Shown piece by piece: positions 13,900-30,780 of a stretch of 33,286 nucleotides of DNA; position 1 is the first letter of the stretch; the number at the start of each line of letters is the position of its first letter. Source of the DNA: a virus; the IMG/VR virus record IMGVR_UViG_3300033145_001790, positions 1 to 33,286 of that record. One strand, written 5' to 3'. The position numbers and the translations under genes were made by a program. The notes beneath the pieces are model-generated. The model worked only from the letters and a program-made list of their open reading frames with translations, had not been told where the DNA came from and did no database searches.

Positions 13900-13908
13900 A
13901 AAATTATA

Positions 13909-13948
13909 TTTGTAGAGAAGAAAACTTTAAATTTTTCTCCTCTACAAA
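13909..13948 (-). terminator. Long inverted repeat, terminator-like
   Basis: TTTGTAGAG.AGAAAA at 13909-13924 pairs with TTTTCT.CTCTACAAA ending at 13948, a stem of about 15 bp with a mismatch. It lies between the stop at 13959 and the start at 13899. On the minus strand it is followed by AT-rich sequence without a clean U-run. It may end the upstream unit or act as an RNA-processing stem. Confidence 0.5.
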
Positions 13949-13958
13949 TTTTCCTTTT

Positions 13959-14705
13959 TCACCCAAGAATTTTAATAATAATACTATCAATCTGTAATAA
14001 ATGATTAATGTCTGTTATTTCTGATTGTCGTTTTAAGAACCAATTAACAAAATCTTCATTTGTTATTTTATTATCTGCATCGGTTTTTATTTGTTTGTAA
14101 AGAAGTTTTATATTTTCTATTTCTGCATTTTGAGAAAGTTTTGTGTTAACTTCATTTATTGAATTTCTAAAAATATTAAGTTCTTCTTCTTCTTTCTTCA
14201 TTTTTATAATATGATATGGAATTAATTTCTCATTAATTTTATGACAAAATACAACTATTAAACTCGTTTTTACACCATAACATTTAATAGATATTTCTTC
14301 ATTATAATCATATATGATTTGAAAACCACTATTGAAAACATTCATATTTTTTCCTGGTAAATCTAAAACTATAGACTTATCAGTATCATCAAAAATAAAA
14401 AGTTTTTGTTTTAGATTACCATCATCATCCAATTCACCAGATGGAAGAGGAACTTTTACTACAATAACTTTATTTGGGTCTATTCCAGATGAAGAAACTT
14501 TTACTTGATTTATATTTTCAAACTTTTCACGATTATGTTCAAACCATTCATTTAAATGACATGTTTTAACTACTTCAGCCACAGGTGATGCTTCATCTTT
14601 AATCAATATTTCTTCTGAATTCTGATCGCCAAAATTAAAATCTTTGTTTGATTCATCATTATTTTCAATTTTCGGGTTTTTTACCATTTCTGCTAAGTTT
14701 TCCAT
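13959..14705 (-). CDS. Hypothetical acidic protein
   Basis: 248 residues with AGGAG before ATG 14705. The first 45 residues are acidic and Asn/Glu/Asp-rich, probably disordered. Residues 60-160 are strand-rich with repeated hydrophobic cores (KVIVVKVPLPSGELDDD; KSIVLDLPGK; SLIVVFCHKI). The last 80 are helical and charged (EEEELNIFRNSINEVNTKLS). No enzyme motif or membrane segment is visible. It follows the 14718-15056 gene closely, so they are co-transcribed. Function unknown. Confidence 0.7.
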   Translation of the reverse strand: MENLAEMVKNPKIENNDESNKDFNFGDQNSEEILIKDEASPVAEVVKTCHLNEWFEHNREKFENINQVKVSSSGIDPNKVIVVKVPLPSGELDDDGNLKQKLFIFDDTDKSIVLDLPGKNMNVFNSGFQIIYDYNEEISIKCYGVKTSLIVVFCHKINEKLIPYHIIKMKKEEEELNIFRNSINEVNTKLSQNAEIENIKLLYKQIKTDADNKITNEDFVNWFLKRQSEITDINHLLQIDSIIIKILG

Positions 14706-14717
14706 TTAACAATTCTC

Positions 14718-15056
14718 CTATTTAATTTGATTTAAATTTTTTCTCCATTCATCTACATCAATATTTGTATATGTTTCTAACGCAGCTCCTGCTAAAGTCA
14801 TTATTTTTATTATACAATCATATGTAATAACAGGAGCTGTTTTTTGTTCATCTGACTCAATACAATTTTTTAACCATGGTGGAAGATTACTATTCCATTC
14901 TTTTGTATAAGAAGTAGTAGCCTTATCAATATAAAATCTTAAAAATTCTAAGAAAGTTGCTACATTAAAACTATTTATTTTTTTATAATCACCAAACATA
15001 AATTCTTCATATTCTCTTTCTTTATCATATAATTTTTTAATTTCACTTCTTTTCAT
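14718..15056 (-). CDS. Hypothetical helical protein
   Basis: 112 residues from ATG 15056, chosen because GAGG lies just upstream; an in-frame ATG 12 bases earlier overlaps that site. The protein is helical with NVATFLEFLRFYIDKA, LPPWLKNCIE and IMTLAGAALETYTNIDVDEW. The Ala-Gly-Ala-Ala-Leu-Glu-Thr-Tyr helix looks like a conserved core that I recall from uncharacterised phage proteins. Function unknown. Confidence 0.7.
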   Translation of the reverse strand: MKRSEIKKLYDKEREYEEFMFGDYKKINSFNVATFLEFLRFYIDKATTSYTKEWNSNLPPWLKNCIESDEQKTAPVITYDCIIKIMTLAGAALETYTNIDVDEWRKNLNQIK

Positions 15057-15731: not shown

Positions 15732-16163
15732 TTAAATTAACCAATCTTTTTTCATATAGGATAAAGATAAATCTTTTAAAGAATCATAATGTTCATTATC
15801 TTTTTGAACTTTTTTCCAGGGTGTGTTCATATAAAATTTTCTTAATTTTCCCTGTCTATTTCCAGATAATATTATTATTATACTTCCATAATCATAATAA
15901 GTTCTTTCTGGTTTATATTTAACCCATCTATATCGTTCAACTATCACACCAAATTGATTTCTTGCATAATTAACAACATTATGGAAATCATTAAATTGAA
16001 TAATATCTCCAACTTTATGTTTTAACCGACTATTATCTAAAATTATTTGATATTCTGCTTTATATTCATATTTATATGGCATATATCGTGGCATATATCG
16101 TCTAGTATATCGTTGCGCTGTTTTTATAACTGTGTGAATTGTTTTATATTTTGTATTTTTCAT
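15732..16163 (-). CDS. Hypothetical basic, aromatic-rich protein
   Basis: 143 residues from ATG 16163, with a GGGGGA site; the TTG three bases upstream is unlikely. The first 40 residues are very basic and Tyr/Arg-rich (QRYTRRYMPRYMPYKYEYKA), which would suit nucleic-acid binding. The rest is a small beta-fold with HKVGDIIQFNDFHNVVNYA and IVERYRWVKYKPERTYYDYG. It overlaps the end of the FolE2 gene by 20 bases, so translation is coupled. I do not recognise a family. Confidence 0.65.
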   Translation of the reverse strand: MKNTKYKTIHTVIKTAQRYTRRYMPRYMPYKYEYKAEYQIILDNSRLKHKVGDIIQFNDFHNVVNYARNQFGVIVERYRWVKYKPERTYYDYGSIIIILSGNRQGKLRKFYMNTPWKKVQKDNEHYDSLKDLSLSYMKKDWLI

Positions 16164-16992
16164 CAAATCCCCCTTTCACACCTTTCCAATTAGTAGCTAT
16201 TGCATTACTAGTATGAATTGATTCTTGATGGACACAATGAATATGCCAATCTTTTATAAAAAACATAGAATTAATATTTTTAGAAATAGATCGAATAGCA
16301 TCTTCTACAAAAATAGGATTTTTTGCAGCTATCTCAGCAATTAATTGTTCATCCACACGTTTAATAATAGGAAAAGGTAAAGTTTTTATACTTTTTTCAA
16401 GAGTTTCAATAATATCTTCTAACCAAATATATTTATCTTTTTCAACTTCAATATTAACATAAACAAATGATCGTTGAGCATGAGGAAATCCAATAGACCC
16501 ATTTTTAAAAAGATCTTTTGATAATTCAGCACTACATGGGCAATAACTTGCGTATTGAAATTTAACACCTTGAAAAAATCTAAACTTTTTTAATACAGAA
16601 TTATAATGCATTTCAAATTTACAATTATGATATATTGGAAATTGGTTATTACTTTTTGGAGATTTTCTTTTTATTGGAAGTTTAAAATCAAATCTTATAA
16701 ATGAGTTTATAGAGCCAATATTTTTATTTAAATCTTCCATAATTTTTTTAATTAATTTATGTTTAAGAGGTAAATCTAAATACGGTTTTAAAGTTAATAA
16801 TAAACGACTCATTGAGATTCCTTTTGTATTATTATTTAAATTGGTTGTCATTGAAACTTTTGCAACCATTTGTTTAAACCCACCATATTTAGATTCAAGA
16901 GTAAATGGAACTTCAATATTATTAACTCCAACTTGATTAATTGGAATTTTAATTTGTGGTTCTGTAATTTGAATATCAGGTAAATCTGTCAT
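16144..16992 (-). CDS. folE2: GTP cyclohydrolase FolE2 (type IB)
   Basis: FolE2 converts GTP to 7,8-dihydroneopterin triphosphate, the entry to folate and to 7-deazaguanine (preQ0/queuosine) synthesis. The 282 residues show the family landmarks in order: VGVNNIEVPF (21-30), GISMSRL (58-64), the metal-binding Cys loop YCPCSAELSK (150-159), GFPHAQRSFV (168-177) with the conserved His, FVEDAIR (228-234) and ESIHTSNAIA (257-266). Length is normal. It is the first gene after rpoB, with an AAGGAG site directly after the structured repeat at 17005-17050. Phages often carry this pathway to make modified bases in their DNA, but no other pathway gene is in the window. Confidence 0.92.
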   Translation of the reverse strand: MTDLPDIQITEPQIKIPINQVGVNNIEVPFTLESKYGGFKQMVAKVSMTTNLNNNTKGISMSRLLLTLKPYLDLPLKHKLIKKIMEDLNKNIGSINSFIRFDFKLPIKRKSPKSNNQFPIYHNCKFEMHYNSVLKKFRFFQGVKFQYASYCPCSAELSKDLFKNGSIGFPHAQRSFVYVNIEVEKDKYIWLEDIIETLEKSIKTLPFPIIKRVDEQLIAEIAAKNPIFVEDAIRSISKNINSMFFIKDWHIHCVHQESIHTSNAIATNWKGVKGGFDEKYKI

Positions 16993-17073: not shown

Positions 17074-20070
17074 TTAATTTTCAATTCCAATTACTGTAAA
17101 ATATGCATTTAAAAGTTTAATTGATTCTGGTATTTCATCATATTTTTGAGGCAAATTTATTAAATCAGTATTTACAAACTTTTTAATATATTTATTTTTT
17201 AAATCAATACAATCTGATTTTGTTGTGAAAAATTCAAATAAATTAATAGGTGCATCATGACCTATAAGACACGCATTCTCTTGTTCCCCACATCTCTGAC
17301 CTCCTTTATTTTTTCTTCCTCCTAAAGGTTGTAGTGTGCGGCGTGAATATGACCCAATCCCTCTCGCTGCTAATTTTCCATCAGCTATATGCACCATTCT
17401 AAAAAAGTATATTTTTCCAATAGCAATTTTATTAACTATATTTTGTTGTGAAATTGGATCAAATATTTTTTGTTCTGGTTTAGTATTTGTAAATTTAAAA
17501 GCTTTTTTAATTTGATCAATATTTAATGATTCAAATGGGGGTTGAATAATTGTTAATTCTTTAATAAATTGTTTATCAATTTTATCTGGTAATTGTTTTT
17601 TAAATTGATTATAGTACCAATTATTTTTTGTATTATCAATAATTTTAATATATGATAACAAATGTTCTCTAATTTGTTTTTGGTTCTTATTATCAAACAT
17701 TTGATTTAATTGATTTTTTAAACCACATAAAGTTTCAGATAATTGAAGTTCAAATAATTGACCTATATTCATTCTTGAAATTATACCTAAAGGATTGATG
17801 CAAATATCAACATGTTCCCCAGATTCAGTTAATGGCATTTTATCATGATCTACAATTCTAGAAATAACTCCTTTATTTCCATGTCGATTAGCTAATTTAT
17901 CTCCAACTTGAACTTTTCTAAAAAATATACTATTTATTTCAACTAACATTCCATTAATTTTTTCACCTTTATTTTTAAATTTACCAACATATGAAAATTT
18001 ATTTAAACTATTATCTCTTATAAAAGTGGAAGCTTCAGCTTTATCTAAATTTTCATTAAGAACTTTCTTTAATACATTTTCTTCACTTTTTTGATTTTCA
18101 ATTCTTTCTTCAACCCATTTTTTAAATTCAGGAATTTCATCATTCCATTCATTTGGATAAATATTTACATCTGTTATAATATAATTATTTACTGCTTTTA
18201 AAATAACTTTCTCATTAAATGAAGAACATAAATCAAAAGAAGACATTTCTTTAATTATTGCATATGGATTTCCGGTTTTAATTTTTTCAAGTTTATCTGG
18301 TAATGGTTTATAACAATTTGTATTTAATGATAACAAAACTCGACTAATAGGTAATATAAATGATAAATTTCTACAATGGACAGATGTTAAAATATTTTCA
18401 TCAACTAATTTTTTAGAAATAACAATTCCATCTTCATAATTATTTCCATAATAAGACATAACTGCTGTTAAAAGATTTCGGCCAATATTTATTTTTCCAT
18501 CTTTACAAAAATTACTTTCAGCTAAAATATCTCCAGCTTTAAATTTATCACCTTCATTAACATAAATATTCATAAAGTCTATATTTTCAACATAAATATT
18601 TTTAAATTTAATATTAAAAATTTCAACTTCTTTATCAAGATATTGAACTATAATATATTGATTTCCAATATATACCACATACCCATCTTTTTTAGCTCTT
18701 TTTATAAATTGGGTAAAATCTGTATATAAACCTTCACAACCAGATCTTATTAAAGGTTGTTCAAAATTTTTTAACATAATCGATTGTCGCATTTGGGAAG
18801 AAGACATCTGTAATCTTGTCTGGTCGTCATTTTCACAAAATGGAACTAATGAAACTGGTATTGAAATTGGTTGATGTTTTAAATAATCTGTTCCAAATTT
18901 TAAATTTTTATCTAATATTACATTGGGAATTAAGTTTTGTAAAATACCACAATTATCTCTGTCAGGAGTGTCGACAGGACAGATTCTTCCAAACATAGAT
19001 GAATGAATATCTCGTAAATGTTTAGGCACATTATCTCTTTTAAAACCTCCTGGCCCAAGTAAACTAACACGAGAAAGTTTTGTAAGTTCTTCTATAGGAT
19101 TTATTGAAAAATCAAATTGAATAATATCAGAAACATTACACTCCTTTAAAATCTGAGTTGAATTAATATTAAATTTTGGTTGTTTTGCAGTTCGATTAGA
19201 AATACATAAATCAAAAACAGATTTTGAAATTTTTGAAAATATCATATATTCTAAACATCTAATACGTTTATTTACAAAATAAGTATCATCAATATTTCCA
19301 TTTTTTAAAACATTTATAATTTCTTCTAATATAGAATTTGTCTTAAAAAATCTACTAGATAGAATGTCAATTTTTGGAATTAACTCAAGAGCATATATGA
19401 TATCCTCACCTTTTGATTTTGCATTATATTTTGAATACATTCTACCAACTTCAGCAATAAAATCATCTTGTGTATAATTTTTTGATTCTTTATAAAAAAT
19501 CTTAAGATCATATAAAAGATTTTCGTATAGATTTTTTGAATCTGTAGATACATTTATTTGATTAAAATCATATGTTTTATTAAGATTCTCTGCATTAAAA
19601 AAAGCAAACATTAAAAGAGCTAATGGTACTTTTTTCGATAAAAAACTAACTGTAATAAAAGGTGGTTCTTTTTCTTTAAAAATCATCATAGTTGCAACAT
19701 TTGTACGTAATTTAATATTTTTTCCTCGTGTACATATAGGAATATCAAATAATTGAAAGAGGGGTATTTTCTTTTTTCCATTTATAATTATATAATTATT
19801 ATCTATTAATTTTGGAATTACCATACTTAAATCAATTTCTGAATTTTCTTTTTTTAATCTAATTATTAAATTTTGTTTTACTGTTTTTGATAATTCACCT
19901 GATGAAAATTTTGAATCTTTTAAATATAATTCATTAATAATAAATCCTAAATCCTCAACAGGTTTTAAAATTTCTGAAACTATATTTATGATATTGTCAT
20001 ATTCTTTTTTTCTTATATTAAAAATATTTTTATCTTTATTAATTTTAAAATTTGGGTTAATTATATTCAT
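17074..20070 (-). CDS. rpoB: DNA-directed RNA polymerase beta subunit, phage-encoded
   Basis: This forms half of the catalytic core of a multisubunit RNA polymerase. The 998 residues are shorter than bacterial beta (about 1150-1340), but the universal blocks are present in order. They are LGPGGFKRDNVP and GRICPVDTPDRDNCG (about 336-370, fork/rifampicin region), NNYEDGIVISKKLV (about 538), GDKLANRHGNKGVISRI (about 722) with the active-site-proximal Lys residues, and NPLGIISRMNIGQLFE (about 755). DGKLAARGIGSYSRRTLQPL and GGQRCGEQENACL (about 893-925) form the C-terminal clamp/switch region. CPVDTPDRDNCG differs from bacterial CPIETPEGPNIG, showing deep divergence rather than recent capture. The gene starts right after the HNH stop, and its AGGAG site lies within HNH codons. 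Confidence 0.95.
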   Translation of the reverse strand: MNIINPNFKINKDKNIFNIRKKEYDNIINIVSEILKPVEDLGFIINELYLKDSKFSSGELSKTVKQNLIIRLKKENSEIDLSMVIPKLIDNNYIIINGKKKIPLFQLFDIPICTRGKNIKLRTNVATMMIFKEKEPPFITVSFLSKKVPLALLMFAFFNAENLNKTYDFNQINVSTDSKNLYENLLYDLKIFYKESKNYTQDDFIAEVGRMYSKYNAKSKGEDIIYALELIPKIDILSSRFFKTNSILEEIINVLKNGNIDDTYFVNKRIRCLEYMIFSKISKSVFDLCISNRTAKQPKFNINSTQILKECNVSDIIQFDFSINPIEELTKLSRVSLLGPGGFKRDNVPKHLRDIHSSMFGRICPVDTPDRDNCGILQNLIPNVILDKNLKFGTDYLKHQPISIPVSLVPFCENDDQTRLQMSSSQMRQSIMLKNFEQPLIRSGCEGLYTDFTQFIKRAKKDGYVVYIGNQYIIVQYLDKEVEIFNIKFKNIYVENIDFMNIYVNEGDKFKAGDILAESNFCKDGKINIGRNLLTAVMSYYGNNYEDGIVISKKLVDENILTSVHCRNLSFILPISRVLLSLNTNCYKPLPDKLEKIKTGNPYAIIKEMSSFDLCSSFNEKVILKAVNNYIITDVNIYPNEWNDEIPEFKKWVEERIENQKSEENVLKKVLNENLDKAEASTFIRDNSLNKFSYVGKFKNKGEKINGMLVEINSIFFRKVQVGDKLANRHGNKGVISRIVDHDKMPLTESGEHVDICINPLGIISRMNIGQLFELQLSETLCGLKNQLNQMFDNKNQKQIREHLLSYIKIIDNTKNNWYYNQFKKQLPDKIDKQFIKELTIIQPPFESLNIDQIKKAFKFTNTKPEQKIFDPISQQNIVNKIAIGKIYFFRMVHIADGKLAARGIGSYSRRTLQPLGGRKNKGGQRCGEQENACLIGHDAPINLFEFFTTKSDCIDLKNKYIKKFVNTDLINLPQKYDEIPESIKLLNAYFTVIGIEN

Positions 20071-20934
20071 TCATTTTTTCTCCTTTCTATATTTCTTCTC
20101 ACATACTAATTTTGCTAAAGCTCCAGGTGAACAATCTCCTTGATGCCCATATTTTAAATGGCAATTATTTCCTTTTCCAAATGAACATAAAACCCACCCA
20201 TTTATTGGATCCAAAGACATTTCAGGGTGAGTTTTTTGAGGCATTTCATGATGAACGCTCAATTCATCTTTATTTATATTTCCACAAATTTCACATTGTA
20301 ATTTTCCATATTCTTCTATATTTCTTTTAAAAACTTCGTGTCTGAATATTTCAGATCCTTCACTTCCTAATTCTTCAGTAATATGTCCTGAATTAATTAA
20401 ATCTTGTTTCATTATTTGTTCTGTAGATTTTCCAAAAAGAATACATGATTTTTTGCATTCTTCAGAACAATAGAAATATGAACCTCCATTTCCGCGTTCT
20501 AAACATATAGCTCTATCATAAAGTTGACTCCCAAATAAAATAAACCACCCATCCATTTCTTTTGAGTTTGGACAATTATGATTTTTACAATGACCTTGGA
20601 TTTTTCCAGTTTTTGAATCTTCTTTTAATTCTTCTACTTCAAATAAAAATGGATGTTTTTCTTTCCAATCTTCAAGAGAATAACTTAATTTTTTTCGAGT
20701 TTTTTCTGTATGATGTTTTCCAAAAAATGGATTATTTTTACCTATAAATTTTCCTTTATGACTCTCGCTCATTCTTCTTCTAGATTCTATAGAAGGAATG
20801 AATTTTTTATGTCTCTCACTATTTTTTTTCCTTATAATTGGACATTGACTATAATGACTTTCACAACACCACTGTCCATTTTTAAATTGATATTTCGCCT
20901 CCCTTCCACAACCATAATCACAAATATGGTTCAT
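20071..20934 (-). CDS. HNH homing endonuclease between rpoC and rpoB
   Basis: 287 residues. It has an N-terminal Cys module (HICDYGCGREAKYQFKNGQW then CCESHYSQCP), NUMOD3-like HKGKFIGKNNPFFGKHHTEK and a long conserved middle. The HNH core has CEICG, VHHEMPQK and DPINGWVLCSFGKGNNCHLK. It is a paralogue of the protein at 7444-8571; the shared C-terminus is ELAKLVCEKRYRKGK in that copy and ALAKLVCEKKYRKEK here. The start codon overlaps the rpoC stop as ATGA. The stop is followed at once by the rpoB start, so the endonuclease sits in the polymerase operon with no spacer on either side. It probably targets the corresponding junction in related phages lacking it. Confidence 0.88.
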   Translation of the reverse strand: MNHICDYGCGREAKYQFKNGQWCCESHYSQCPIIRKKNSERHKKFIPSIESRRRMSESHKGKFIGKNNPFFGKHHTEKTRKKLSYSLEDWKEKHPFLFEVEELKEDSKTGKIQGHCKNHNCPNSKEMDGWFILFGSQLYDRAICLERGNGGSYFYCSEECKKSCILFGKSTEQIMKQDLINSGHITEELGSEGSEIFRHEVFKRNIEEYGKLQCEICGNINKDELSVHHEMPQKTHPEMSLDPINGWVLCSFGKGNNCHLKYGHQGDCSPGALAKLVCEKKYRKEKK

Positions 20935-23636
20935 GTTATTCTTTCTCCAATAAGAATTTTATCAATAATTCCTTTATAATTACCTTTATTTAAAAGACCT
21001 TTTAAAATATGTCTTTTTGGATTAGAAAAACTTAAACCTAAAATCCAACTTTCTTGACTTGGTGTCGATTGAATACTAAAATATTCTGGGACTAATTCAT
21101 TTCTATTTTCATAAAGTCTCCATTTTTTATGTTTATACCACATCAATTGAGCTACAATACATTCAAAATGGATATGATAAATATCTTGATTATGAGAATA
21201 AACATCAAATAATTCTGAAGTAATTTCTTTATAAGTTTTTCCTTTAAATTTATGTAATAATTTTGATATTGTTGATAAATCTGCAACAATATCTTTTTGT
21301 TTCATATCTGTATTTTTTCCTTTTTCATTATTTATAATTGCTGATCCACTGAAATGAAACGTCCTTAATATTAACTGAGTTCCTCTTTCCCCTAAAGTTT
21401 GGGCTGCAATAATTCCTATATATTTACTATGTAATTCTTCATATGTATTACCATAACATTTATGACATATATTTTTATTTTTACATAAAATAGGACTTCT
21501 TAATTGAATTGTTTGCCCTAATAAATTTTTAACATCTTCTTTTTTTATTTGTATTAAAATATTATTTTTAATATAAAATCTTCCTATTAACATTTTAGCT
21601 TTTCGTTTTGTATTAATAAAAACTTCTAAACAATCAGTAGTTCCACAATCATCAGAATTTCCTAATTGTAAATTAGCACAAGTAAAAATTAATTTTCTTG
21701 AAAGATAACCAGAAACTCCTGTATTCAACGCTACATCCAAAAGTCCTTTTCGACATCCATATGTCGAATTAAAAAATTCTTTTTCATCTAATCCTTCTAT
21801 CAAACTATGTTTAATAGGAGTTTCTAAAATTTCACCATCAAAATTTGAAATAAACCCTCTTGTTAATATCATTTGTTTAATTTGTTCCCAACTACCTCTT
21901 GCTCCAGATTCAAGCATATAAGCATATTTAAAATTCTTTTTTAAAAATTCTGTAATATCATTATTAGAAAATTTATTTAATTGTTCTATAATATTATCTG
22001 AAGAATATATTTCATTACATATTTTATTTGATTCATTTATTACACATTCATTAAGAACCATAGTAGTTCCAAATAAAGTTGCAAATTTAAATCCTATTCT
22101 TTTTATTTTATCTAAAGTTTTTGTTATTTCTTCAATTGGATATAAATTTTTAATATCATTTAGAATTTCTAATAAACGTTTTTTATCTACTTTTCCAAAA
22201 ACAACAGGGTAATCTTCTGGAAGACATTTATTAAATTCAACTTCCCCCTTACTTATATTTTCATTTTTATATTTTATTATATTTTTATAATCTGGTAAAT
22301 TATTTGTAGTTAAAGCATATATTCCTAAAATTATATCTTGAGTCGGAATAGTTGATAAAGATCCATTAGCTGGACTGCTTAAATTTTTAGTAATAAAAAT
22401 TTTATCTTTTATTTCTTGTTTTGCTTCTTCAGAAATTGGAACATAAACTGCGATACAATCACCGTCAAAATCTGCATTTAATGGAGCACATATCATAGGG
22501 TGTATTTTAATGACAGAATCTAAACTTATTTTGATTTTAAATCCTAACATTCCTATTCTATGTAATGAAGGTTGTCTGTTTAAAATACAAACTTCATCTT
22601 TAATAATCAATTTACATAAATCAAATAAAACTGGAGAAGAATTTTCAATACATTCATCAATAAAAGAAATAGCTTTATTAAGAAGTTTGAATTTTCCGAT
22701 CTCTATTAATTTTTTAGAAATTTGAAGTTTAAATATTTCTAAAACCATTTTATAAGGTAAAATACATTCATCTATCTTTAAAGTTGGTTCTGGAGTAATT
22801 ACAGCTCGACCAGAAAAATCAATTCTTTTTCCTAAAATATTTCCTCTAATAAGCCCTTCTTTTTTAGACATTTTTTCTAAAATATGATGATAAAGTTCAT
22901 TAACGTCTTTTTGTAATTGTTTAAAATAAATATAATATAACTTTTTATTAGTTCTTATATCAATAATTGTATTTTTCATAGATTCTTTTTTTGTTAAAAT
23001 TTGCATATAGAATCTATTTATTTTATCAACTATCTGATTATTTTTTTTAATACCTTTTGCAGCCGGTCTTAAATCTGGAGGTAAAACTATAATTTGATTA
23101 ATGATGAGTTTATCTAAATTATTTTTTATAAGTTTCCAATCTGCAATCTCTTCTGAAAGATTATTTGCAAGATCTTTTATTATTTTTTGAATAGCATTAA
23201 GACCTTCCCAAGTTTCTTTATTTTTTGGAATTAGTTCTGAGTTTGTTGTTATAACATGTTCATCTTCATCTAAATATAAAATACTTTTATCATTTTTCAT
23301 TAATTCAGTTAACGCACCTTTTAAATTAGAACCACCCAATACTATTAATAGATCATAAAATATTGGGTTTATAACAGGAATAGGTAAAATTATTTTTGCA
23401 AATCTTTTTCGACGTTCATTACTATTTACAATATCAACTTTACATATTTCACAATTATTTCCTGATTTAGAAATACCATAATAAGTTCCACATTGACAAG
23501 TATAATTCTTCATTGGCCCAAAAATTTGCTCAGAAAATAACCCTTCAGGATGAAATTTTTTTTTATTCATAATTTTTGTTGTAGTAATTTCTTGTAAATT
23601 TTCACAAAAATTTTGAAAATCTAAAAGTTTTGGCAT
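20931..23636 (-). CDS. rpoC: DNA-directed RNA polymerase beta-prime subunit, phage-encoded
   Basis: This is the catalytic subunit. The 901 residues contain the Mg-binding signature NADFDGD (385-391). Before it come GKRIDFSGRAVITPEP (about 270) and LNRQPSLHRIGMLGF (about 350). The bridge-helix/trigger-loop region is very recognisable: ESGARGSWEQIKQMILTRG (about 575), GLDEKEFFNSTYGCRKGLLD and ALNTGVSGYLSRKL. Zinc ligands are present at the N-terminus (Cys47, 49, 62, 65) and in the second site (DDCGTTDC with NICHKCYG). IGIIAAQTLGERGTQLILRT completes the core. It lacks most lineage-specific insertions and about 500 residues of E. coli length. AGGAG precedes ATG 23636. No alpha, omega or sigma gene is visible in the window. 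Confidence 0.95.
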   Translation of the reverse strand: MPKLLDFQNFCENLQEITTTKIMNKKKFHPEGLFSEQIFGPMKNYTCQCGTYYGISKSGNNCEICKVDIVNSNERRKRFAKIILPIPVINPIFYDLLIVLGGSNLKGALTELMKNDKSILYLDEDEHVITTNSELIPKNKETWEGLNAIQKIIKDLANNLSEEIADWKLIKNNLDKLIINQIIVLPPDLRPAAKGIKKNNQIVDKINRFYMQILTKKESMKNTIIDIRTNKKLYYIYFKQLQKDVNELYHHILEKMSKKEGLIRGNILGKRIDFSGRAVITPEPTLKIDECILPYKMVLEIFKLQISKKLIEIGKFKLLNKAISFIDECIENSSPVLFDLCKLIIKDEVCILNRQPSLHRIGMLGFKIKISLDSVIKIHPMICAPLNADFDGDCIAVYVPISEEAKQEIKDKIFITKNLSSPANGSLSTIPTQDIILGIYALTTNNLPDYKNIIKYKNENISKGEVEFNKCLPEDYPVVFGKVDKKRLLEILNDIKNLYPIEEITKTLDKIKRIGFKFATLFGTTMVLNECVINESNKICNEIYSSDNIIEQLNKFSNNDITEFLKKNFKYAYMLESGARGSWEQIKQMILTRGFISNFDGEILETPIKHSLIEGLDEKEFFNSTYGCRKGLLDVALNTGVSGYLSRKLIFTCANLQLGNSDDCGTTDCLEVFINTKRKAKMLIGRFYIKNNILIQIKKEDVKNLLGQTIQLRSPILCKNKNICHKCYGNTYEELHSKYIGIIAAQTLGERGTQLILRTFHFSGSAIINNEKGKNTDMKQKDIVADLSTISKLLHKFKGKTYKEITSELFDVYSHNQDIYHIHFECIVAQLMWYKHKKWRLYENRNELVPEYFSIQSTPSQESWILGLSFSNPKRHILKGLLNKGNYKGIIDKILIGERIT

Positions 23637-23854: not shown

Positions 23855-24074
23855 TTTGAATTTCCTCATTTTTTCTTTTTTTTTTGAGTTTATTTTTTAA
23901 AAGTAATTTATTTTTTAAAATTATATGATTAATTTTTTTAGTTGCTTCATAAGTTGCAGCTTTAATTAAATCACTTCCAACTTCACGGCAGATATTTTCA
24001 AGTTTATCCAAAGAATTTAAAACTATATCTAATATTTTATTTTCTTTTTCAAAATTCTGGTTTGATTTCTTCAT
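23838..24074 (-). CDS. Small helical basic protein
   Basis: 78 residues from ATG 24074 with GAGGAAG upstream. It is helical, with ILDIVLNSLDKLENICREVG and a strongly basic tail (KNKLKKKRKNEE). It overlaps the E2-like gene upstream by 26 bases and the next small gene downstream, so translation is coupled through the whole string. I recognise no family. The basic tail could bind nucleic acid. Confidence 0.6.
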   Translation of the reverse strand: MKKSNQNFEKENKILDIVLNSLDKLENICREVGSDLIKAATYEATKKINHIILKNKLLLKNKLKKKRKNEEIQNDNEK

Positions 24075-24381
24075 ATTTTATATCTTCCTCTGTAGGTTTA
24101 AAATAACAATCATTAAAATTATAAGTTGTTAATATATTTTCGATATTTTTTTTAAGAATACTCCCTATTTCAAAATTTATCATTTGAGAAGGAATACAAA
24201 ATTCTCCTAATAGATTAGCATTTGGATGTAAAGATTCAATAAAAAGTGACACAATTTTATTTTTTATTGATTTAATAAAATATTTTCTTATTACATATTT
24301 TTTATGAATATATGTAATTTTAAATAATTTTTTTTCATATATTACTCTTGATGGTATAATAATTTTATTAACAATTTCCAT
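24049..24381 (-). CDS. Candidate E2-like (UBC-fold) protein, short form
   Basis: 110 residues. Four predicted strands (KIIIPSRVIY, LFKITYIHKKYVI, KYFIKSI, IVSLFIES) lead into LHPNANLLGEFCIPS. This places His-Pro-Asn (52-54) seven residues before Cys62, the same spacing as the HPN...G-x-x-Cys active-site loop of ubiquitin E2 enzymes. A helix (MINFEIGSILKKNIENILTT) follows, as expected after the catalytic Cys. The protein lacks the usual first helix and is shorter than the 150-residue UBC core. It starts three bases after the stop of the ThiF-like gene, with its ribosome site inside that gene, so E1-like and E2-like proteins are made together. The E2 assignment is inferred from one motif plus context. 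Confidence 0.5.
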   Translation of the reverse strand: MEIVNKIIIPSRVIYEKKLFKITYIHKKYVIRKYFIKSIKNKIVSLFIESLHPNANLLGEFCIPSQMINFEIGSILKKNIENILTTYNFNDCYFKPTEEDIKYEEIKPEF

Positions 24382-24384
24382 ATT

Positions 24385-25242
24385 TTAAGCAGCTCCTGTT
24401 TCAGGAATTAATTCAACATAAAATTGTTTGTTAAATTTTGTGGTAGATATTACATAATTATTAAAGCAGTTTGGAATATTTATCATAGAAACTAAATTAA
24501 ATATTATATCATTACTATTAAGTAATGTTTTTGCTGGAACAATTTTTTCACAAATTGGTGAATCTTTTGTTCCGACACACATATTAATTTTGGAAGTTTT
24601 ATTCGCTTTTAAAATTGGTAAAATATTATTAGCGAGATTTATTAGTTGATCTTCGCCAGGTACTGAATCATAAATAATATCTTTCTTTCTTTTAATAAAT
24701 TTTTTTAAATAATCTAAATCAAATTTATGAACACTTTGATCTAATATACAATCTCGAATTTGATTATTGTCTATTAAATTTGCAAAAATAATTGAAGCAT
24801 TTCTTAAATCATTTTTTGTTAAATAAGTAATATATTTTCCTTTATGTTGTTTTTCATAATAAACATTTCTTCGACAATCTATAATTAAATATCTTGAAGA
24901 AATATATAATCGGGTATCAATAGATTTACCTCGATTATATGTATAATCTCTACAATCTATAAGGATATCATATTTGGGGATTTTAGTTACATTTTCTATA
25001 TATTTTTTATTAATTTTTTTAATAATAATATCTTCATTTTTATTTTTTATAATATTTTCTAAAGCATCAACTTTTAATATTCCGACATCTTTTTTTCTAT
25101 AAATTGTATTTTTTAAATTATTATCTTCAATAATATCATGATCAATTAAAATTAGTTCATTAATTTTTTCTAAATTAGAAATATAATTAGCAACATAACC
25201 ACCAAGAGACCCAATTCCTATAACAGCAATTTTTTTATACAT
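24385..25242 (-). CDS. ThiF/E1-like adenylating enzyme 1
   Basis: 285 residues with an N-terminal Rossmann nucleotide site, IAVIGIGSLGGYVA (GxGxxG at about 9-14). The E1/ThiF signatures follow: LIDHDIIEDNNL (acidic residues and Asn for ATP), the Arg/Lys segment YRKKDVGILKVDALE, and LIDCRDYTYNR, matching the Asp-x-x-Asp-Asn-x-x-x-Arg pattern. Such enzymes adenylate the C-terminal Gly of ubiquitin-like or sulfur-carrier proteins. A CxxC zinc site is not obvious and the catalytic Cys is uncertain (DSPICEKIVPAKTLL near 240 is one candidate). It is coupled to the HPN-Cys protein downstream and is clearly distinct from the second ThiF at 26682-27359. Confidence 0.8.
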   Translation of the reverse strand: MYKKIAVIGIGSLGGYVANYISNLEKINELILIDHDIIEDNNLKNTIYRKKDVGILKVDALENIIKNKNEDIIIKKINKKYIENVTKIPKYDILIDCRDYTYNRGKSIDTRLYISSRYLIIDCRRNVYYEKQHKGKYITYLTKNDLRNASIIFANLIDNNQIRDCILDQSVHKFDLDYLKKFIKRKKDIIYDSVPGEDQLINLANNILPILKANKTSKINMCVGTKDSPICEKIVPAKTLLNSNDIIFNLVSMINIPNCFNNYVISTTKFNKQFYVELIPETGAA

Positions 25243-25265
25243 AAAATTATCCTCTCTTTTATTTC

Positions 25266-25511
25266 TTAAGAAATTGGGTTCATTAATTTTATTATCTCGT
25301 CAGTTTTATCTACTAAAAATAAAATTTCGTTTTTTGAAAGTCTCCCTGATGATCCGTATCCAATGGTTCCATCTTTTTTATTATAAGTTCTTGTAATTTG
25401 AAGTTTTGGTTCAGCCTCATTATAAGAAAAAATAATAAATTGCAAACTTCCATTTTCTTGTTCCATTTCAAAAAGTTTTATCATTTTGTCATTTTCTTTA
25501 TTATAACCCAT
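25266..25511 (-). CDS. Small protein, possibly PC4-like
   Basis: 81 residues after GGGGGGGAG. LFEMEQENGSLQFIIFSY, EPKLQITRTYNKKDGTIGYG and SSGRLSKNEILFLVDKTDEI give four strands and a C-terminal helix. The pattern 'strand-Arg-x-Tyr-x-x-x-Gly-x-x-x-x-x-x-Gly-x-x-Leu-(T/S)-x-x-E' recalls the PC4/YdbC single-stranded DNA-binding coactivator fold. That would suit a gene close to rpoC, but the similarity is faint. The run of seven G in its ribosome site is unusual in this AT-rich genome. Confidence 0.6.
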   Translation of the reverse strand: MGYNKENDKMIKLFEMEQENGSLQFIIFSYNEAEPKLQITRTYNKKDGTIGYGSSGRLSKNEILFLVDKTDEIIKLMNPIS

Positions 25512-25548
25512 ATAATCTTCTCCCCCCCTATAAATTTATATTTTTTTA

Positions 25549-25582
25549 ATAGTGAGATTATACATAAATATAATCTCACTAT
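25549..25582 (-). terminator. Perfect 14-bp inverted repeat between genes
   Basis: ATAGTGAGATTATA (25549-25562) pairs perfectly with 25569-25582 across a 6-base loop, directly after the stop of the 178-residue gene. On the minus strand the stem is preceded by TTTTTT and followed by AAAAAAA, so the U-run needed for minus-strand termination is absent. It may be an RNA-stabilising stem or an operator. Confidence 0.5.
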
Positions 25583-25588
25583 AAAAAA

Positions 25589-26125
25589 TTATTTTAACAT
25601 AGACATTTCATCTGCGGTCAACTCTGATTTATATGAAGCTTTAAAATTAAACAATTTATGAGTTTCTCTAATAGAATAATTTCTCGGAATTTTAAAAAAC
25701 ATTTTTAACTTTTTTCCATTTTGAATTTTTTTAATATAAAATGTATCTATTAATGGAATTATTTGTTTTTCAAAATATTTAAAATCATTTTTATTTTTTA
25801 TATTAAATTTTCTGGAAATATTTTTTTGTTTCCATCTATGAGAATTCATAATTTCAATTTTTAAAGAATCTTTTTTCTCTTCAATAGCTTTTAGTGCTCG
25901 TGATAATGATTTACTTCTTCCTTTTTTCTTATTAAAAGTATCAAGAACAGAACATATTGATACACCCCTTGACATAACCTCATTATTTTCATCTAAAAAT
26001 AAACATACCGTACAAACATTATTTACTAATTCTGTTTTATAATAATAATATTTTATTCTTTTAACTCTAATTTTTTTAAGATATTGTTCAAAGTTAAGTT
26101 TTTGATCTTTCTTAACTTTTTTCAT
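25589..26125 (-). CDS. Hypothetical protein with RGVSICS...GRSKSLSRALKA motif
   Basis: 178 residues with a perfect AAGGAGG site. The N-terminus is Lys-rich; LVNNVCTVCLFLDENNEVMS leads into RGVSICSVLDTFNKKKGRSK and SLSRALKAIEEK at about residues 53-84. This segment has the look of a conserved signature seen in phage and plasmid proteins that I cannot name. The rest is basic and mixed alpha/beta (FFKIPRNYSIRETHKLFNF). It lies between the two halves of the ubiquitin-like region and is bounded by hairpins on both sides. Function unknown; a link to conjugation is only positional. Confidence 0.65.
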   Translation of the reverse strand: MKKVKKDQKLNFEQYLKKIRVKRIKYYYYKTELVNNVCTVCLFLDENNEVMSRGVSICSVLDTFNKKKGRSKSLSRALKAIEEKKDSLKIEIMNSHRWKQKNISRKFNIKNKNDFKYFEKQIIPLIDTFYIKKIQNGKKLKMFFKIPRNYSIRETHKLFNFKASYKSELTADEMSMLK

Positions 26126-26141
26126 TTTCTTCCTCCTTAAT

Positions 26142-26185
26142 AAAAATTAAAGGGAATATTTTCATATCCCCTTTAATTTTTTAAT
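26142..26185 (-). terminator. Terminator-like hairpin after the ubiquitin-like gene
   Basis: AAATTAAAGGG (26144-26154) pairs perfectly with CCCTTTAATTT (26169-26179), 14-base loop, with A-runs and T-runs outside. On the minus strand the stem is followed by UUUUU. It closes the cassette 30780-26205. The next gene starts only 17 bases further on, leaving no room for a promoter, so termination is presumably partial. Confidence 0.8.
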
Positions 26186-26204
26186 TAATAATTCTTAATT
26201 GTTT

Positions 26205-26663
26205 TTAACCCTTTTTTCCAGCCGGTTTAATAAATTCAAGAATATCACCATCTTTTAAAACATATCCATCTAATACTTCTTTTCCATTAACCAAACCTTT
26301 TGACATACGAGCTACATTTAAAACTTCACGTAGAAATTCTGAAACAACACCAACTGATTTTCCAACTACTGGAAATTTCCCAGAAGAAGCTCCAGCTGAA
26401 ACTTGAATTGTTGTTTTTGTTTTATTCCCAAATGATGCATTCGGATTTGTTAAAGAACTTGTAAAAGATCCATCCAATCCAGTAACTTTATTATTTTGAG
26501 TTTTGGTCGTTATTTTCTTTTTAATTGATCTTGTGTTTTTAAGAATAGCTTCTATAATGATATCTTTACGTTTTTTAGTCATTCCTGGTATTTCAAGAGT
26601 ATGAACACATATTTGACGAAGTTCTACTACAGTTTTGTTTTGTAATTCTTCTTTTGTATACAT
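26205..26663 (-). CDS. Ubiquitin-like beta-grasp protein with N-terminal SAP/HeH-like domain
   Basis: 152 residues with a GAGGAG site. Residues 1-42 (VVELRQICVHTLEIPGMTKK then RKDIIIEAIL) form a helix-extended-loop-helix, SAP/HeH-like, often nucleic-acid binding. A Ser/Thr/Asn-rich linker follows. Residues 84-147 read as a beta-grasp: two strands, a helix (VSEFLREVLNV), then LVNGKEVLDGYVLKDGDILE and FIKP, as in ThiS/MoaD and ubiquitin-like folds. The C-terminus is PAGKKG. A terminal Gly is needed for E1 activation, and PRTRC protein C, as I recall it, also ends in Gly-x-Lys-Gly. It lies directly after a ThiF gene and a JAB gene. Role as a conjugated modifier is inferred. Confidence 0.75.
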   Translation of the reverse strand: MYTKEELQNKTVVELRQICVHTLEIPGMTKKRKDIIIEAILKNTRSIKKKITTKTQNNKVTGLDGSFTSSLTNPNASFGNKTKTTIQVSAGASSGKFPVVGKSVGVVSEFLREVLNVARMSKGLVNGKEVLDGYVLKDGDILEFIKPAGKKG

Positions 26664-26681
26664 ATAAAAAACTCCTCTCTT

Positions 26682-27359
26682 TTAGTTTTTACAAATTCTT
26701 TTTTTAGAATCTGCTTTCATGGTTAAAATATCAAAATAAATTTCACAAAATTGGTAATTTTTTTTTACAATAACATTATAAAATGCCCAACACATAATAG
26801 TTGCAACACCCAAATTAGTAAAGAGTAACTGTGGTTCTGATTTTGAAAGTTCTTCACATGACATTTCATCTGGATGTTTATCATCTGGATTTTTAATTTC
26901 TTGATGATAATCACATAAACTTGGTGTAATATTTTCACCTCCTTTTCTTATATAAATTTGTACATTACCATCTATAAAATCATTCCCCCCAGAAATAAGA
27001 ATAATTTCATCAAGACAATTGCAATAATTTGAAATCAATTGTCGAGTCTTATGATTATCAACTCCTAATAAAACAATATCTTTATTTTGAATAATAGTAG
27101 ATATATTTTCATCATTAACATATTGATTAATTGAATTAATTTTTAATTGTTTAAATTTAATTTCAAGTTCTTTGGTTTTAACTTCAGCTTTATTTCCAAT
27201 ATAATTAAAATCTTGTCTTTCATAATTTTTTAATTCATATTGGTCTCCATCTACTAAAGTAATATTTATATCATTCTCCTTCGAATAATTAAGAAATTTA
27301 CATAATTTATCAGTTAAAATTGACCCAATTCCACCAAGACCAATAATTTTAATATTCAT
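26682..27359 (-). CDS. ThiF/E1-like adenylating enzyme 2, PRTRC-ThiF-like
   Basis: 225 residues. IKIIGLGGIGSILTDKL gives the GxGGxG nucleotide loop at 7-12. LVDGDQYELKNYERQDF (35-51) supplies the acidic/Asn residues and the Arg finger, followed by a Lys near 59-61. VLLGVDNHKTR is the second ATP-site segment and ISGGNDFIDGNVQ follows. The C-terminal MSCEELSKSEPQLLFTNLGV (166-185), with Cys168, matches the Ser-Cys...Gln-x-Leu-Phe-x-Asn-x-x-Val-Ala pattern I recall from PRTRC-system ThiF proteins. It probably adenylates the C-terminal Gly of the adjacent beta-grasp protein and may form a thioester on Cys168. AAGGAG precedes the ATG. Confidence 0.85.
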   Translation of the reverse strand: MNIKIIGLGGIGSILTDKLCKFLNYSKENDINITLVDGDQYELKNYERQDFNYIGNKAEVKTKELEIKFKQLKINSINQYVNDENISTIIQNKDIVLLGVDNHKTRQLISNYCNCLDEIILISGGNDFIDGNVQIYIRKGGENITPSLCDYHQEIKNPDDKHPDEMSCEELSKSEPQLLFTNLGVATIMCWAFYNVIVKKNYQFCEIYFDILTMKADSKKRICKN

Positions 27360-27371
27360 TTATTTTCTCCT

Positions 27372-28274
27372 TTATAAATAATTCATTAAATTTAAATTAT
27401 CTTCATCTTCATCAATTTCTTGAGTCATTTTTTCAAGCATTAAATCAATTTTATAATCTTTAAAAACACATTCTTTACATGGATTAAAATCATCATCAGT
27501 ATTATTATTATTGTCACTACCAAATGACAATGAATCGATTATTTTTTGATTCCTTATTCTTGAAAAATCAAAACTATTAATATTAATTGGTAATATTTCT
27601 TTTTTAGAAACATTTTTTAACCATTTTTTATTAAATTTAGCTTTTATAATATTTGAAGATTCAACTATATAAAAAATACCATCTTTATTAAATTGAACAA
27701 TACCTTGAATATATTCTCCTGGTTCTGTAATAAATCTTGACCCATTAATTACAATAGATGATGAAATACTAAATGATAAATCAGAATTATTAATATTTCC
27801 AAGAGTAATATGTAAACCATCAAATTCTTTTTCATCATGACTATCAACTCCAGAATGAAAAGCTGATAATGATCCGTGACTATGAATATCTCCTATTAAA
27901 TTATAATTAGGAATATTATTTATAGAATAGTCTAATGAACATGAAGAAACAGTTTGGGTAGGAGCATATAATTTAAATTTTTTAGACAATTCATTATAAT
28001 AAATTAATACAATTGCCTCCCCTTTATAAAGTTCATAAACTTTTCTAAAAAAAGTAATAATTTTAAGAAATTTAATTGTTGATATTTTAGGAATATTCAT
28101 TTTAGCTTTAGAAACTATATTTAAATTATTCAAAATTGAAATTTGATTAACTGGGGTAATACTTTCTAATAATCCTAATTTCTTTTTTAAAAATATCCCC
28201 TCTTTAGAAACTATATAAAAAATATCGTCTTTAGGAATTTCTTGATTTCCATCATTAATAAATATTTTAAACAT
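27372..28274 (-). CDS. JAMM/JAB metalloprotease (deconjugase-like)
   Basis: 300 residues. GDIHSHGSLSAFHSGVDSHD provides the full JAMM zinc motif: His131-x-His133, seven residues, Ser141, two residues, Asp144. Glu86 in KGEAIVLIYYNE is the likely catalytic acid. JAMM peptidases cleave isopeptide or peptide bonds next to ubiquitin-like proteins, either maturing the modifier or removing it. The N-terminal 70 residues and the C-terminal 100, including CKEC, are additional. The start overlaps the end of the 837-residue gene, and E1 and the ubiquitin-like gene follow with short gaps. This is the gene content of PRTRC-like and other bacterial ubiquitin-like operons. Confidence 0.88.
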   Translation of the reverse strand: MFKIFINDGNQEIPKDDIFYIVSKEGIFLKKKLGLLESITPVNQISILNNLNIVSKAKMNIPKISTIKFLKIITFFRKVYELYKGEAIVLIYYNELSKKFKLYAPTQTVSSCSLDYSINNIPNYNLIGDIHSHGSLSAFHSGVDSHDEKEFDGLHITLGNINNSDLSFSISSSIVINGSRFITEPGEYIQGIVQFNKDGIFYIVESSNIIKAKFNKKWLKNVSKKEILPININSFDFSRIRNQKIIDSLSFGSDNNNNTDDDFNPCKECVFKDYKIDLMLEKMTQEIDEDEDNLNLMNYL

Positions 28275-30780
28275 TTCTGATATTTATCTCCCTATCTTGT
28301 TTGAATGAAAAATTTGATGAATTATTTTTTGTATACATCCCATGAAAATTTGGAAATCCTGAAAATTTTTGACATATTGTTTGTTGTTTTTTAGTATATC
28401 TTGGAGTAATAAAACCATGATGATAATAAGGATGTTTTTGAAAATTTGAATTATAATTATTTCCTCTTATAAAATTTCTGATTTTTTCTATTTGTAAAAT
28501 ATTATTATAATAAATATATAATATACTATCTAAAAAACTATCTCCCTCAATAGAAATAAAATCTCCAGGTTGAAATTTAATTTTAGACAGATTAATCGGA
28601 GCATGTTTTAATTTTTTCCATTTAAGTGAATCATTTTGAATTAATTCAAAATTAGTTTTTAAATCACTATACCATAAAGTACAACAATTAGAACAAAGAA
28701 CTAAAGGTTCTCCTCCAGTATCTATTAAAAATCCAATAATAATGTTAATATCTTTTTTAGGAAAATTTGAAATTTGAGATTTATTAGCTCTTATTTTTGT
28801 TCCTGATACAATTCCTTTATATTCTGTTTGAATTTTTCTTATAACTCCTATATTTATTTCAATATCTATAAATTGTTTATTTTTTCGAATATAGGGAATA
28901 TGTTCTATTTCTCCCTTTTTATTTTTTAAATGTATTTCAATAATATCTTCTGTTTTATTAAAATAAAATTTATCAATTGTTTGAATATTAAACATGTTTG
29001 TTGGATTTTCCCAATCTGCTTTTACAACTTGATCTCCAATTTTAAAATTTATTTCATTATCAAAACTTGTAACTTTAAATTTTTTATTTGAGGAATCTAT
29101 GCAAAATTTGAAAACTTCTTCTAATGATGGATTCTGTAAAATTTCATTTCTTAAAAATTTAGTTTTAGTTATAAAACTTTTTTGTTTATCATTCAAAAAT
29201 AATTTCGCACCGATTCTAAAAATACGAGGACATAATTTACAATCTGTTATTTTATGAATTATAAAATTAGTACTATCAAATAATGGTATACGAATTTTAT
29301 TATTATTATTATTATCTTTAAATGTTAATATGATTTTATTTTGTATACTTATATTACACTCAATAAATGTAGCTTTTATATAGTTTGTAACTACTAATTT
29401 ATAATTATTATTTTCTAATATATAAATTTCATTTTTCTTTAATTTTATATTTTGAAATTTTGGATTTTTATTATCAAAAATAGTAGCTTCTAAATTTTTA
29501 GCTAAATAATTATCATTATTTAGAATAATTTCAAATTCACCATCTCTTGCTTTTTTAATTTTATTTACTCGTTTATAACCTTTAAATGGAAAATCAACTA
29601 TTAATATATCTCCTTTTTTGACAATAATATTATTTTTTAATTTAATAAAATCTATTTGATTTTGATTTTCTAAAAATTGATTAATATTTGATTTGAAGAT
29701 TCTATCTATTTTTAATTTTGAAAAATTATGTTCAGAATCTTCAACTTTGACATATAATGGATCGGATAATGCATCATTACCAATAAATGTTTCTATAAAA
29801 AATTCTTTTTTATTAAGTATAAAAGAATCACCAATTGATAATACTCCATTTTCAAAAGCTACTGATTCACATATATTTTCATATAATTCTTTTTTATCTT
29901 CTTTTTTATCTTCTTTTTCATCAATTTTATAAAGTCTTGTGAAAATTTTTTCAAGAGAATAAAAATTAAATGAATCATTGCATAAATTTATATTATTTTC
30001 TATTTCACATATTTCTCGACTTAAAGTATAAAAATGGGGAATCCATGAAACATCAAATATAAACATTGGATCTTTTTTAGTATTATACTCCCATGTTAAA
30101 TAATCACTAACTTCATTATTTTTTTGTGCATATTTTTCAACATGGGATATATAATCATTATTAAAAATAGCAGACCAAAATTTCAATAAAATATTATCAC
30201 ATGATTCAATTAATGTTATGTTAGATGGTTGGTCGAATACACCAAGACATACTGTTTGTTTTGAACTTATATTTAACAAATTAGCATTTAATAAATAGTC
30301 TGCTTTGCTTGATATAGGTGATAATCGAAAGAAAACTTCTAAACGAATTAATTGATTTTCTGGATTTAAAACTATAATATAAACAATATATGGAAATGAC
30401 AATAAAAATCTATATGGTTTTTTATTTTCTTTTAAGAAATTTTTAAAACCATATTTTTCTAAATGACCTGATAATTTTAATTTTTCAATAACATATTCCA
30501 TACTTAAATCAACTAAAATTGTTCTTACTCTTGGTTGGTCTTCAAGTATAACCATTTTTGAACCATCTGAATAATATTTTGAATATCTGCAATTTAAAGG
30601 GAGTATTACATCACCACTTTTCATTTTTAATTTTTCTTGAATTCTCCCTAAAAAACCTTTAGTTGATTTAATACAATCTCTTATCATTGGAATTGTATCT
30701 TTTTTATCATTTTGAGTTATTTTAGAAATTAATAAAGATGTACAATTATTATCTATTCTTATTTCTTTTAAGTCATGCAT
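28267..30780 (-). CDS. Large multidomain protein with E2-like N-terminal signature
   Basis: 837 residues with AAAGGAG upstream. Residues 55-200 include MKSGDVILPLNCRYSKYYSD, LEDQPRVRTILVDLS and FLLSFPYIVYIIVLNPENQL, then EVFFRLSPI and LLNANLLNISSKQTVCLG. Asn170 is eight positions before Cys178, the spacing between the HPN Asn and catalytic Cys of E2 enzymes, and VCLG resembles the loop of PRTRC protein B-type E2 relatives as I recall them. The remaining 600 residues are strand-rich with several SH3/KOW-like pieces (KKGDILIVDFPFKGYKRVNK; FKIGDQVVKADWENP) and isolated CxxC pairs (DCKLCPR, LCSNCC). It may combine conjugation with substrate recognition. The E2 assignment is an inference. Confidence 0.6.
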   Translation of the reverse strand: MHDLKEIRIDNNCTSLLISKITQNDKKDTIPMIRDCIKSTKGFLGRIQEKLKMKSGDVILPLNCRYSKYYSDGSKMVILEDQPRVRTILVDLSMEYVIEKLKLSGHLEKYGFKNFLKENKKPYRFLLSFPYIVYIIVLNPENQLIRLEVFFRLSPISSKADYLLNANLLNISSKQTVCLGVFDQPSNITLIESCDNILLKFWSAIFNNDYISHVEKYAQKNNEVSDYLTWEYNTKKDPMFIFDVSWIPHFYTLSREICEIENNINLCNDSFNFYSLEKIFTRLYKIDEKEDKKEDKKELYENICESVAFENGVLSIGDSFILNKKEFFIETFIGNDALSDPLYVKVEDSEHNFSKLKIDRIFKSNINQFLENQNQIDFIKLKNNIIVKKGDILIVDFPFKGYKRVNKIKKARDGEFEIILNNDNYLAKNLEATIFDNKNPKFQNIKLKKNEIYILENNNYKLVVTNYIKATFIECNISIQNKIILTFKDNNNNNKIRIPLFDSTNFIIHKITDCKLCPRIFRIGAKLFLNDKQKSFITKTKFLRNEILQNPSLEEVFKFCIDSSNKKFKVTSFDNEINFKIGDQVVKADWENPTNMFNIQTIDKFYFNKTEDIIEIHLKNKKGEIEHIPYIRKNKQFIDIEINIGVIRKIQTEYKGIVSGTKIRANKSQISNFPKKDINIIIGFLIDTGGEPLVLCSNCCTLWYSDLKTNFELIQNDSLKWKKLKHAPINLSKIKFQPGDFISIEGDSFLDSILYIYYNNILQIEKIRNFIRGNNYNSNFQKHPYYHHGFITPRYTKKQQTICQKFSGFPNFHGMYTKNNSSNFSFKQDREINIRNV

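Follow-up and report, generated by a model that had tools for sequence, protein, structure and literature searches.

A ThiF-like and minimal E2-like gene pair beside phage RNA polymerase genes as a possible second branch of a ubiquitin-like conjugation operon

Known bacterial ubiquitin-like (Ubl) systems, i.e., CBASS Cap2 and Bil, serve defence against phages. Operon type 6d, as presented in Iyer et al. 2006 (PMC1779556), associates a Ubl, a JAB protein with an N-terminal domain, an E1-like protein, an E2-like protein without the classical His and a helical protein; according to the profile names, this type probably corresponds to PRTRC. A search of the open-access PMC literature by title and start of the abstract, with subscription papers outside its scope, returned no paper describing an E1-E2-Ubl-JAMM operon in a phage. 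In a survey of 224 jumbo-phage genomes (PMC7824862), the words ThiF, JAB, E1-like, E2-like and Ub-like are all absent, thus such an operon appears undescribed there.

The whole stretch of DNA analysed (hereafter the window) is a phage fragment of 33,286 bases from an IMG/VR virus record, with a G+C content of 24%. The genes of the operon and the adjoining RNA polymerase (RNAP) genes lie on the minus strand. In the direction of transcription the order is: an 837-aa protein (28267-30780) containing a PRTRC_B/Prok-E2_D-like E2 domain (E2a) near residues 160-225; a PRTRC_A-like JAB/JAMM protease (27372-28274); ThiF1, a PRTRC-type E1-like protein of 225 aa (26682-27359); a Ubl with an N-terminal Rho_N domain, a C-terminal beta-grasp-like domain and the end KPAGKKG (26205-26663); a 178-aa ORF (25589-26125) and an 81-aa ORF (25266-25511); ThiF2, an E1-superfamily protein of 285 aa (24385-25242); and E2b, a minimal E2-like protein of 110 aa (24049-24381). 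Downstream of E2b are two small ORFs, then the phage RNAP subunits beta' (20931-23636) and beta (17074-20070), both with PHROG RNAP matches. The first E1/E2-like pair is thus ThiF1 and the Prok-E2_D-like domain of the 837-aa protein. The first-pass annotation had described two E1-like and two E2-like candidates within 6.7 kb, and a ThiF-like gene followed 3 bases on by a 110-residue ORF; both descriptions are correct, the former for positions 24049-30780 and the latter for ThiF2 and E2b. Two other ORFs were recognized by eye only: (i) a 287-aa HNH endonuclease-like ORF between beta' and beta (window 20071-20934), not seen at that place in contigs L002, L018 and L019; (ii) a GTP cyclohydrolase-like (FolE2-like) ORF downstream of beta (window 16144-16992), present likewise in these three contigs.

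ThiF2, E2b, beta' and beta were also found together on nine other viral contigs. The ThiF2-E2b pair stands beside RNAP beta' in all ten records and the gene order is the same in the nine relatives. The complete block, i.e., E2a-JAB-ThiF1-Ubl-ThiF2-E2b-beta'-beta, is kept in 8 of the 9; the ninth relative (L028) starts inside ThiF2, so that the upstream half of its block is outside the contig. Counts on E2b hence refer to ten records, and those on complete ThiF2 and on the upstream genes to nine. The E2b proteins of L025 and L028 are 98% identical, thus nine well-separated lineages are represented. The 178-aa and 81-aa ORFs, located between Ubl and ThiF2, are found in only three records (window, L022, L027) and two records (window, L002), respectively. 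The longest relative, G009 (L033, 223 kb), is by its gene content a jumbo myovirus, since it has matches to sheath, baseplate, terminase, portal and DNA polymerase and carries a second multisubunit RNAP beta/beta' pair (L033:7573-11649 and 11818-14838) besides the pair adjoining the conjugation operon.

These relatives were reached via RNAP beta' (one relative), a DNA pattern of beta' (two new related contigs) and an alignment of ThiF2 (nine in all), single-sequence searches being mostly blank. No relative was obtained when viral contigs were scanned with the single window sequences of ThiF2, E2b and RNAP beta, nor when 50,697 phage records were queried by tblastn with the first two. In genome contigs from 84,980 species, the pattern search gave 39 stretches but no ThiF2 relative. 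The E2b of L026 against phage records and that of L025 against plasmid records gave no match. With the ThiF2 of L027, tblastn gave partial matches in 42 phage records; the best 20 of these 42 span 22-38% of the query, with an E-value of 6e-9 at best. Several candidates were set aside: (i) G002, from the beta' DNA pattern, is an unrelated contig without ThiF2 or E2b match; (ii) a match of the ThiF2-tail pattern in the Caballeronia contig L041 has no ThiF2- or E2b-profile match and was taken as chance; (iii) L004 (MT836236.1) and L005 (CAKLQH020000005.1), found as RNAP beta matches in the phage collection, were dropped as cellular contigs. It should be mentioned that L004 and L005 are labelled phage yet carry ribosomal-protein and rpoB-rpoC operons, and are probably mislabelled host contigs.

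The E2b HMM gave no match in six other ThiF neighbourhoods (L042-L047). One of them belongs to the Bacillus phage vB_BauM_KLEB27-3 (L043, OM634661.1), a large phage as well, in which PRTRC_A and ThiF genes are adjoining (6458-8708); it differs from the present lineage by having only one ThiF and no E2b-like protein (E up to 1) within the 16.5 kb examined. KLEB27-3 might serve as a tractable model of Ubl systems in phages.

The phage operon resembles PRTRC-type operons (type 6d, as described in PMC1779556) by the grouping of an E2_D-like domain, a PRTRC_A-like JAMM, a PRTRC-like ThiF and a Ubl with a C-terminal Gly. It differs from them in that (i) it has an additional ThiF2 and HPN-type E2b, neither of which is part of type 6d in the same description; (ii) E2a is located inside an 837-aa protein and the Ubl is fused to Rho_N; (iii) it adjoins RNAP genes; (iv) the PRTRC profiles match below their cut-offs. 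Indeed, JAMM matches TIGR03735 (PRTRC_A) at 3.6e-9 with 36.5 bits vs. an equivalog cut-off of 101.8, and ThiF1 matches TIGR03736 (PRTRC ThiF) at 8.7e-10 with 38.3 bits vs. 144.75. PF14460 (Prok-E2_D, PRTRC_B) has matches in 9 of the 10 records, above cut-off in one. The residues N170, C178 and G180 of E2a, the JAMM motif HxHx7Sx2D and the residues Arg48, Lys57/Lys61 and Asp101 of ThiF1 are each kept in 9/9. In several relatives, JAMM has a long, Cys-rich C-terminal extension (11 to 14 Cys in five of nine, e.g., L018:8037-9668 and L019:7820-9460), possibly zinc ribbons.

The Rho_N domain of the Ubl is above cut-off (1.2e-6), while the beta-grasp domain is weakly assigned (TGS; window E 0.0067, best E 0.00086). 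Rho_N is a domain of nucleic-acid-binding type. Such a head on a ubiquitin-like modifier is unusual (window 26205-26663). The C-terminus of the Ubl is P-[AS]-G-[KR]-K-G in 9/9, with an additional Cys behind the Gly in 2/9, i.e., the precursor-like Ubls of L022 (near 6881-7324) and L023 (near 7467-7916); these KKG-Cys ends are consistent with trimming by JAMM.

BilABCD and CBASS Cap2 are likewise Ubl-type cascades of bacteria, comprising E1, E2 and JAMM protease, and ThiF2 resembles the E1 domains of the CBASS E1-E2 models. However, these are host defence systems whereas the present operon is phage-borne. In type II CBASS, E1 and E2 (Cap2) are fused, while ThiF2 and E2b are separate ORFs. No PADLOC model matches E2b, Ubl, JAMM or the 837-aa protein. 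BilB, as presented in PMC11354881, has a CEHH active site, unlike E2b.

The E2b of the window contains LHPNANLLGEFC, with HPN at residues 52-54 (24220-24228) and the predicted thioester cysteine, Cys62, at 24196-24198. Pairwise identity among the ten E2b proteins is 31-98% (median 50%). The alignment has 15 invariant columns in 10 rows, including H, P, N and the predicted thioester C; the loss of HPN or Cys62 in homologues, named by the first-pass annotation as refuting its reading, was not observed, and neither was its other refuting outcome, a non-UBC predicted fold. Since both genes are found, ordered alike, in nine relatives and all ten E2b proteins keep HPN and Cys, the ThiF2/E2b pair is more than a chance association. 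A His-to-Cys offset of 10 is the typical E2 value. It was claimed that E2b keeps the exact eukaryotic spacing; this holds for the window (offset of 10) but not for the family, the offset being 11 in the nine other E2b proteins.

Sequence comparisons of E2b are statistically weak. The 10-row profile gave two matches under E 10 among 177,635 PDB sequences. The better one (E 0.29), from a plant, does not include the motif in its alignment. The other, at E 0.82, is 5nkz, the ubiquitin-conjugating enzyme E2-21 kDa, aligned over PHPNVNFKTGEIC; Cys62 is aligned to the Cys of 5nkz within this segment, and the offset in 5nkz is 11. We take 5nkz to be Pex4, a genuine E2. Pfam UQ_con has a weak match in one of the ten E2b members (E 0.16, 12 bits vs. 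a cut-off of 27), which spans the active site (residues 9-69 to profile 33-85); two other members match unrelated Pfam families at E 0.12. A search of PF00179 on all ten records gave no match at E up to 10, which counts against the reading preferred below.

The AlphaFold2 model of E2b (best pLDDT 86.3) shows meandering strands, two short helices and the segment with HPN and Cys; it was built from only 4 sequences and is the best of five models, the others ranging from 63.9 to 31.5. The model begins with strands and has no N-terminal helix alpha1, in agreement with the missing first UBC helix of the initial description. With Foldseek on the PDB, the best 50 rows among the matches listed are all E2/UBC chains (best E 0.024). 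With VIA-align, 50 rows among the matches listed are all E2 or E2-containing chains (Z 4.0-4.7), and the aligned part starts past the first ~30-50 residues of the E2s, i.e., without helix 1 (from residue 42 for UBE2S). It must be kept in mind that TM values against UBC structures are 0.29-0.44, i.e., <0.5, and that Z <5 is a range which the tool itself calls common. In the viral structure library, the best row (E 0.21) is an E2 from Bodo saltans virus, and the rows below it are unrelated. A UBC fold, proposed at first from the motif, is thus favoured by the identity of the matches listed, all UBC/E2, while the matches themselves are weak (E 0.024, TM about 0.4, Z 4.7). From this model, E2b probably has a UBC fold. 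The agreement of motif, structure rows and operon context outweighs any single statistic, none being significant alone. In summary, E2b shares with eukaryotic E2/UBC proteins (e.g., Pex4, Rad6, UBE2S) HPN, Cys, the 11-offset of Pex4 and a UBC-like model, and differs from them by its 110 aa, the lack of N-terminal helix and scores below every curated sequence cut-off.

The short length and the missing N-terminal helix would also suit a non-catalytic UBC/UEV- or RWD-like partner, which would position the Ubl or the substrate for E2a. Catalytically inactive UBC-like proteins are indeed described in prokaryotic operons in PMC1779556, but these relatives are described there as lacking the Cys, whereas HPN and Cys are among the 15 invariant columns of E2b. 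A non-catalytic role is therefore considered improbable. Another explanation involves no Ubl conjugation: the pair would be a small adenylating/redox module, HPN...C would be convergent, and Cys62 and Cys92 would have metal or disulfide roles. Cys92, in CYF, is invariant in 10/10 too, and the weak fold match agrees with such a module; on the contrary, the pair is linked to a Ubl, a JAMM and a recognized Prok-E2_D domain in all nine records covering that region, and this explanation appears very improbable indeed.

By its matches, ThiF2 is a member of the E1 superfamily: PF00899 (ThiF) matches residues 4-114 (E 3e-13, 49.9 bits vs. a cut-off of 28.1), the 9-row profile matches MoeB (1jw9, 3.3e-9), the PADLOC E1-E2 models of CBASS match with E down to 1e-10, and the Foldseek rows, obtained from a low-confidence model (pLDDT 54.6), are from the E1 family. 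The resemblance to E1 is recognizable only in the first ~115 residues; past this point there is no family match and the model is poor. No catalytic-Cys domain was identified in ThiF1 or ThiF2.

The gap between ThiF2 and E2b is -1 in seven records and 0, 1 and 3 bases in the other three. A probable Shine-Dalgarno element for E2b, GGAG (24393-24396), is contained in the last codons of ThiF2; GGAGC is found at this place in 8 of the 10 records, GGCGC and GGGGC in the remaining two. These short gaps and the Shine-Dalgarno-like element suggest that ThiF2 and E2b are translationally coupled, and the tight coupling noted in the window thus extends to the family. The C-terminal tail of ThiF2, EL[IV]PETGAA (24388-24414), is unusually conserved (10/10), while the third codon bases vary. 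A conservation purely as Shine-Dalgarno was rejected in part, the codons for P, E and T varying synonymously.

According to PMC12355090, Gly41, Arg73, Lys86 and Asp130 of MoeB are residues matching UBA1. In ThiF2, most of the nucleotide pocket is kept: Lys57 and Asp99, equivalent to Lys86 and Asp130, are present in 9/9. The Arg73 equivalent is not; it is Asn in all nine complete ThiF2, in a MoeB alignment with a one-residue gap just there. In the tree, ThiF1 and ThiF2 form separate single clades (support 99/98 and 100/99), and six other phage/plasmid ThiF proteins are distributed, four and two, on either side of the deep split between them; this split has a support of only 92/94 and the tree gave long-branch warnings. 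The direct comparison of the ThiF1 and ThiF2 profiles covers 102 columns only. A recent duplication of ThiF1 into ThiF2 was rejected as unlikely, since each protein forms its own clade and other ThiF proteins group with either, though the deep branches are long.

Cap2 and MccB adenylate non-Ubl protein tails. ThiF2 might thus be an active E1 in a fully parallel pathway, adenylating a second, unrecognized Ubl or a non-Ubl protein tail which E2b would conjugate. The retention of Lys57 and Asp99, best matches among which are MoeB, MccB and CBASS E1-E2 proteins (PADLOC, E 1e-10), and the separate clades of ThiF1 and ThiF2 are in favour of such a pathway. Against it, the Arg73 equivalent is lost in 9/9. 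Moreover, in the 220 of 223 kb of G009 that were examined, E2b, ThiF2, Ubl and ThiF1 were each matched once and once only (E up to 5) and the JAMM motif occurred a single time; ORFs cut at piece ends and a remote Ubl could escape this count. A fully parallel pathway is thus unlikely, although it retains a real chance. Two parallel routes or a relay had been envisaged at the outset: the former is weakened by the single Ubl and JAMM motif detected in these 220 kb and by the loss of Arg73. A branch or relay sharing the Ubl is a better fit, as is a heterodimeric E1.

The interpretation that we favour, with modest confidence, is that the phage encodes a single, reversible Ubl conjugation operon in which ThiF2-E2b provides a second E1-E2 branch, with ThiF2 as the E2b-side partner of ThiF1. 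(i) JAMM would trim the Ubl precursor where an additional residue follows the Gly; (ii) ThiF1 would adenylate the single Ubl at its C-terminal Gly; (iii) the Ubl would be passed to an E2 cysteine, either in the 837-aa protein (Prok-E2_D domain) or in the minimal HPN-type E2b; (iv) the JAMM protease would take the tag off. ThiF2 would most likely assist E2b from the E1 side, as a partner or docking platform in a heterodimer with ThiF1, rather than be an independent E1. Eukaryotic E1s pair inactive and active adenylation domains. The same pairing is described for BilD in PMC11354881. The end of the Ubl, GKKG and not GG, counts against this interpretation, as do its weak beta-grasp assignment, the poor model of ThiF2, the weak fold statistics of E2b and the failure to identify a catalytic-Cys domain in either ThiF protein. 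What the sequences show is the gene order, the invariant HPN, Cys and JAMM motifs, the homology of both ThiF proteins to E1 and the tight ThiF2-E2b arrangement; the UBC fold, thioester chemistry on E2b, the ThiF1-ThiF2 partnership and any substrate are what we infer.

Transcription is a plausible target, the adjacency to the RNAP genes being the only evidence. A more speculative version, with a small chance of being right, is that this jumbo-phage lineage has a self-contained reversible system of two E1 and two E2, in which the Rho_N-headed modifier would be put by E2b on the phage's own or the host RNA polymerase, tethering or switching polymerases; the invariant PETGAA tail could be a built-in pseudo-substrate.

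The phage lineage itself keeps a Ubl system, and this system adjoins its RNA polymerase genes. The results suggest that the phage may tag proteins through a two-branched ubiquitin-like pathway. In eukaryotic E2s, helix 1 contributes to the face that binds E1 and E3; because E2b lacks it, a free-standing 110-residue E2 with the HPN...Cys site of eukaryotic enzymes would offer a minimal case for testing UBC requirements. If two different E1-like proteins act on one Ubl, they could illustrate the origin of heterodimeric E1s.
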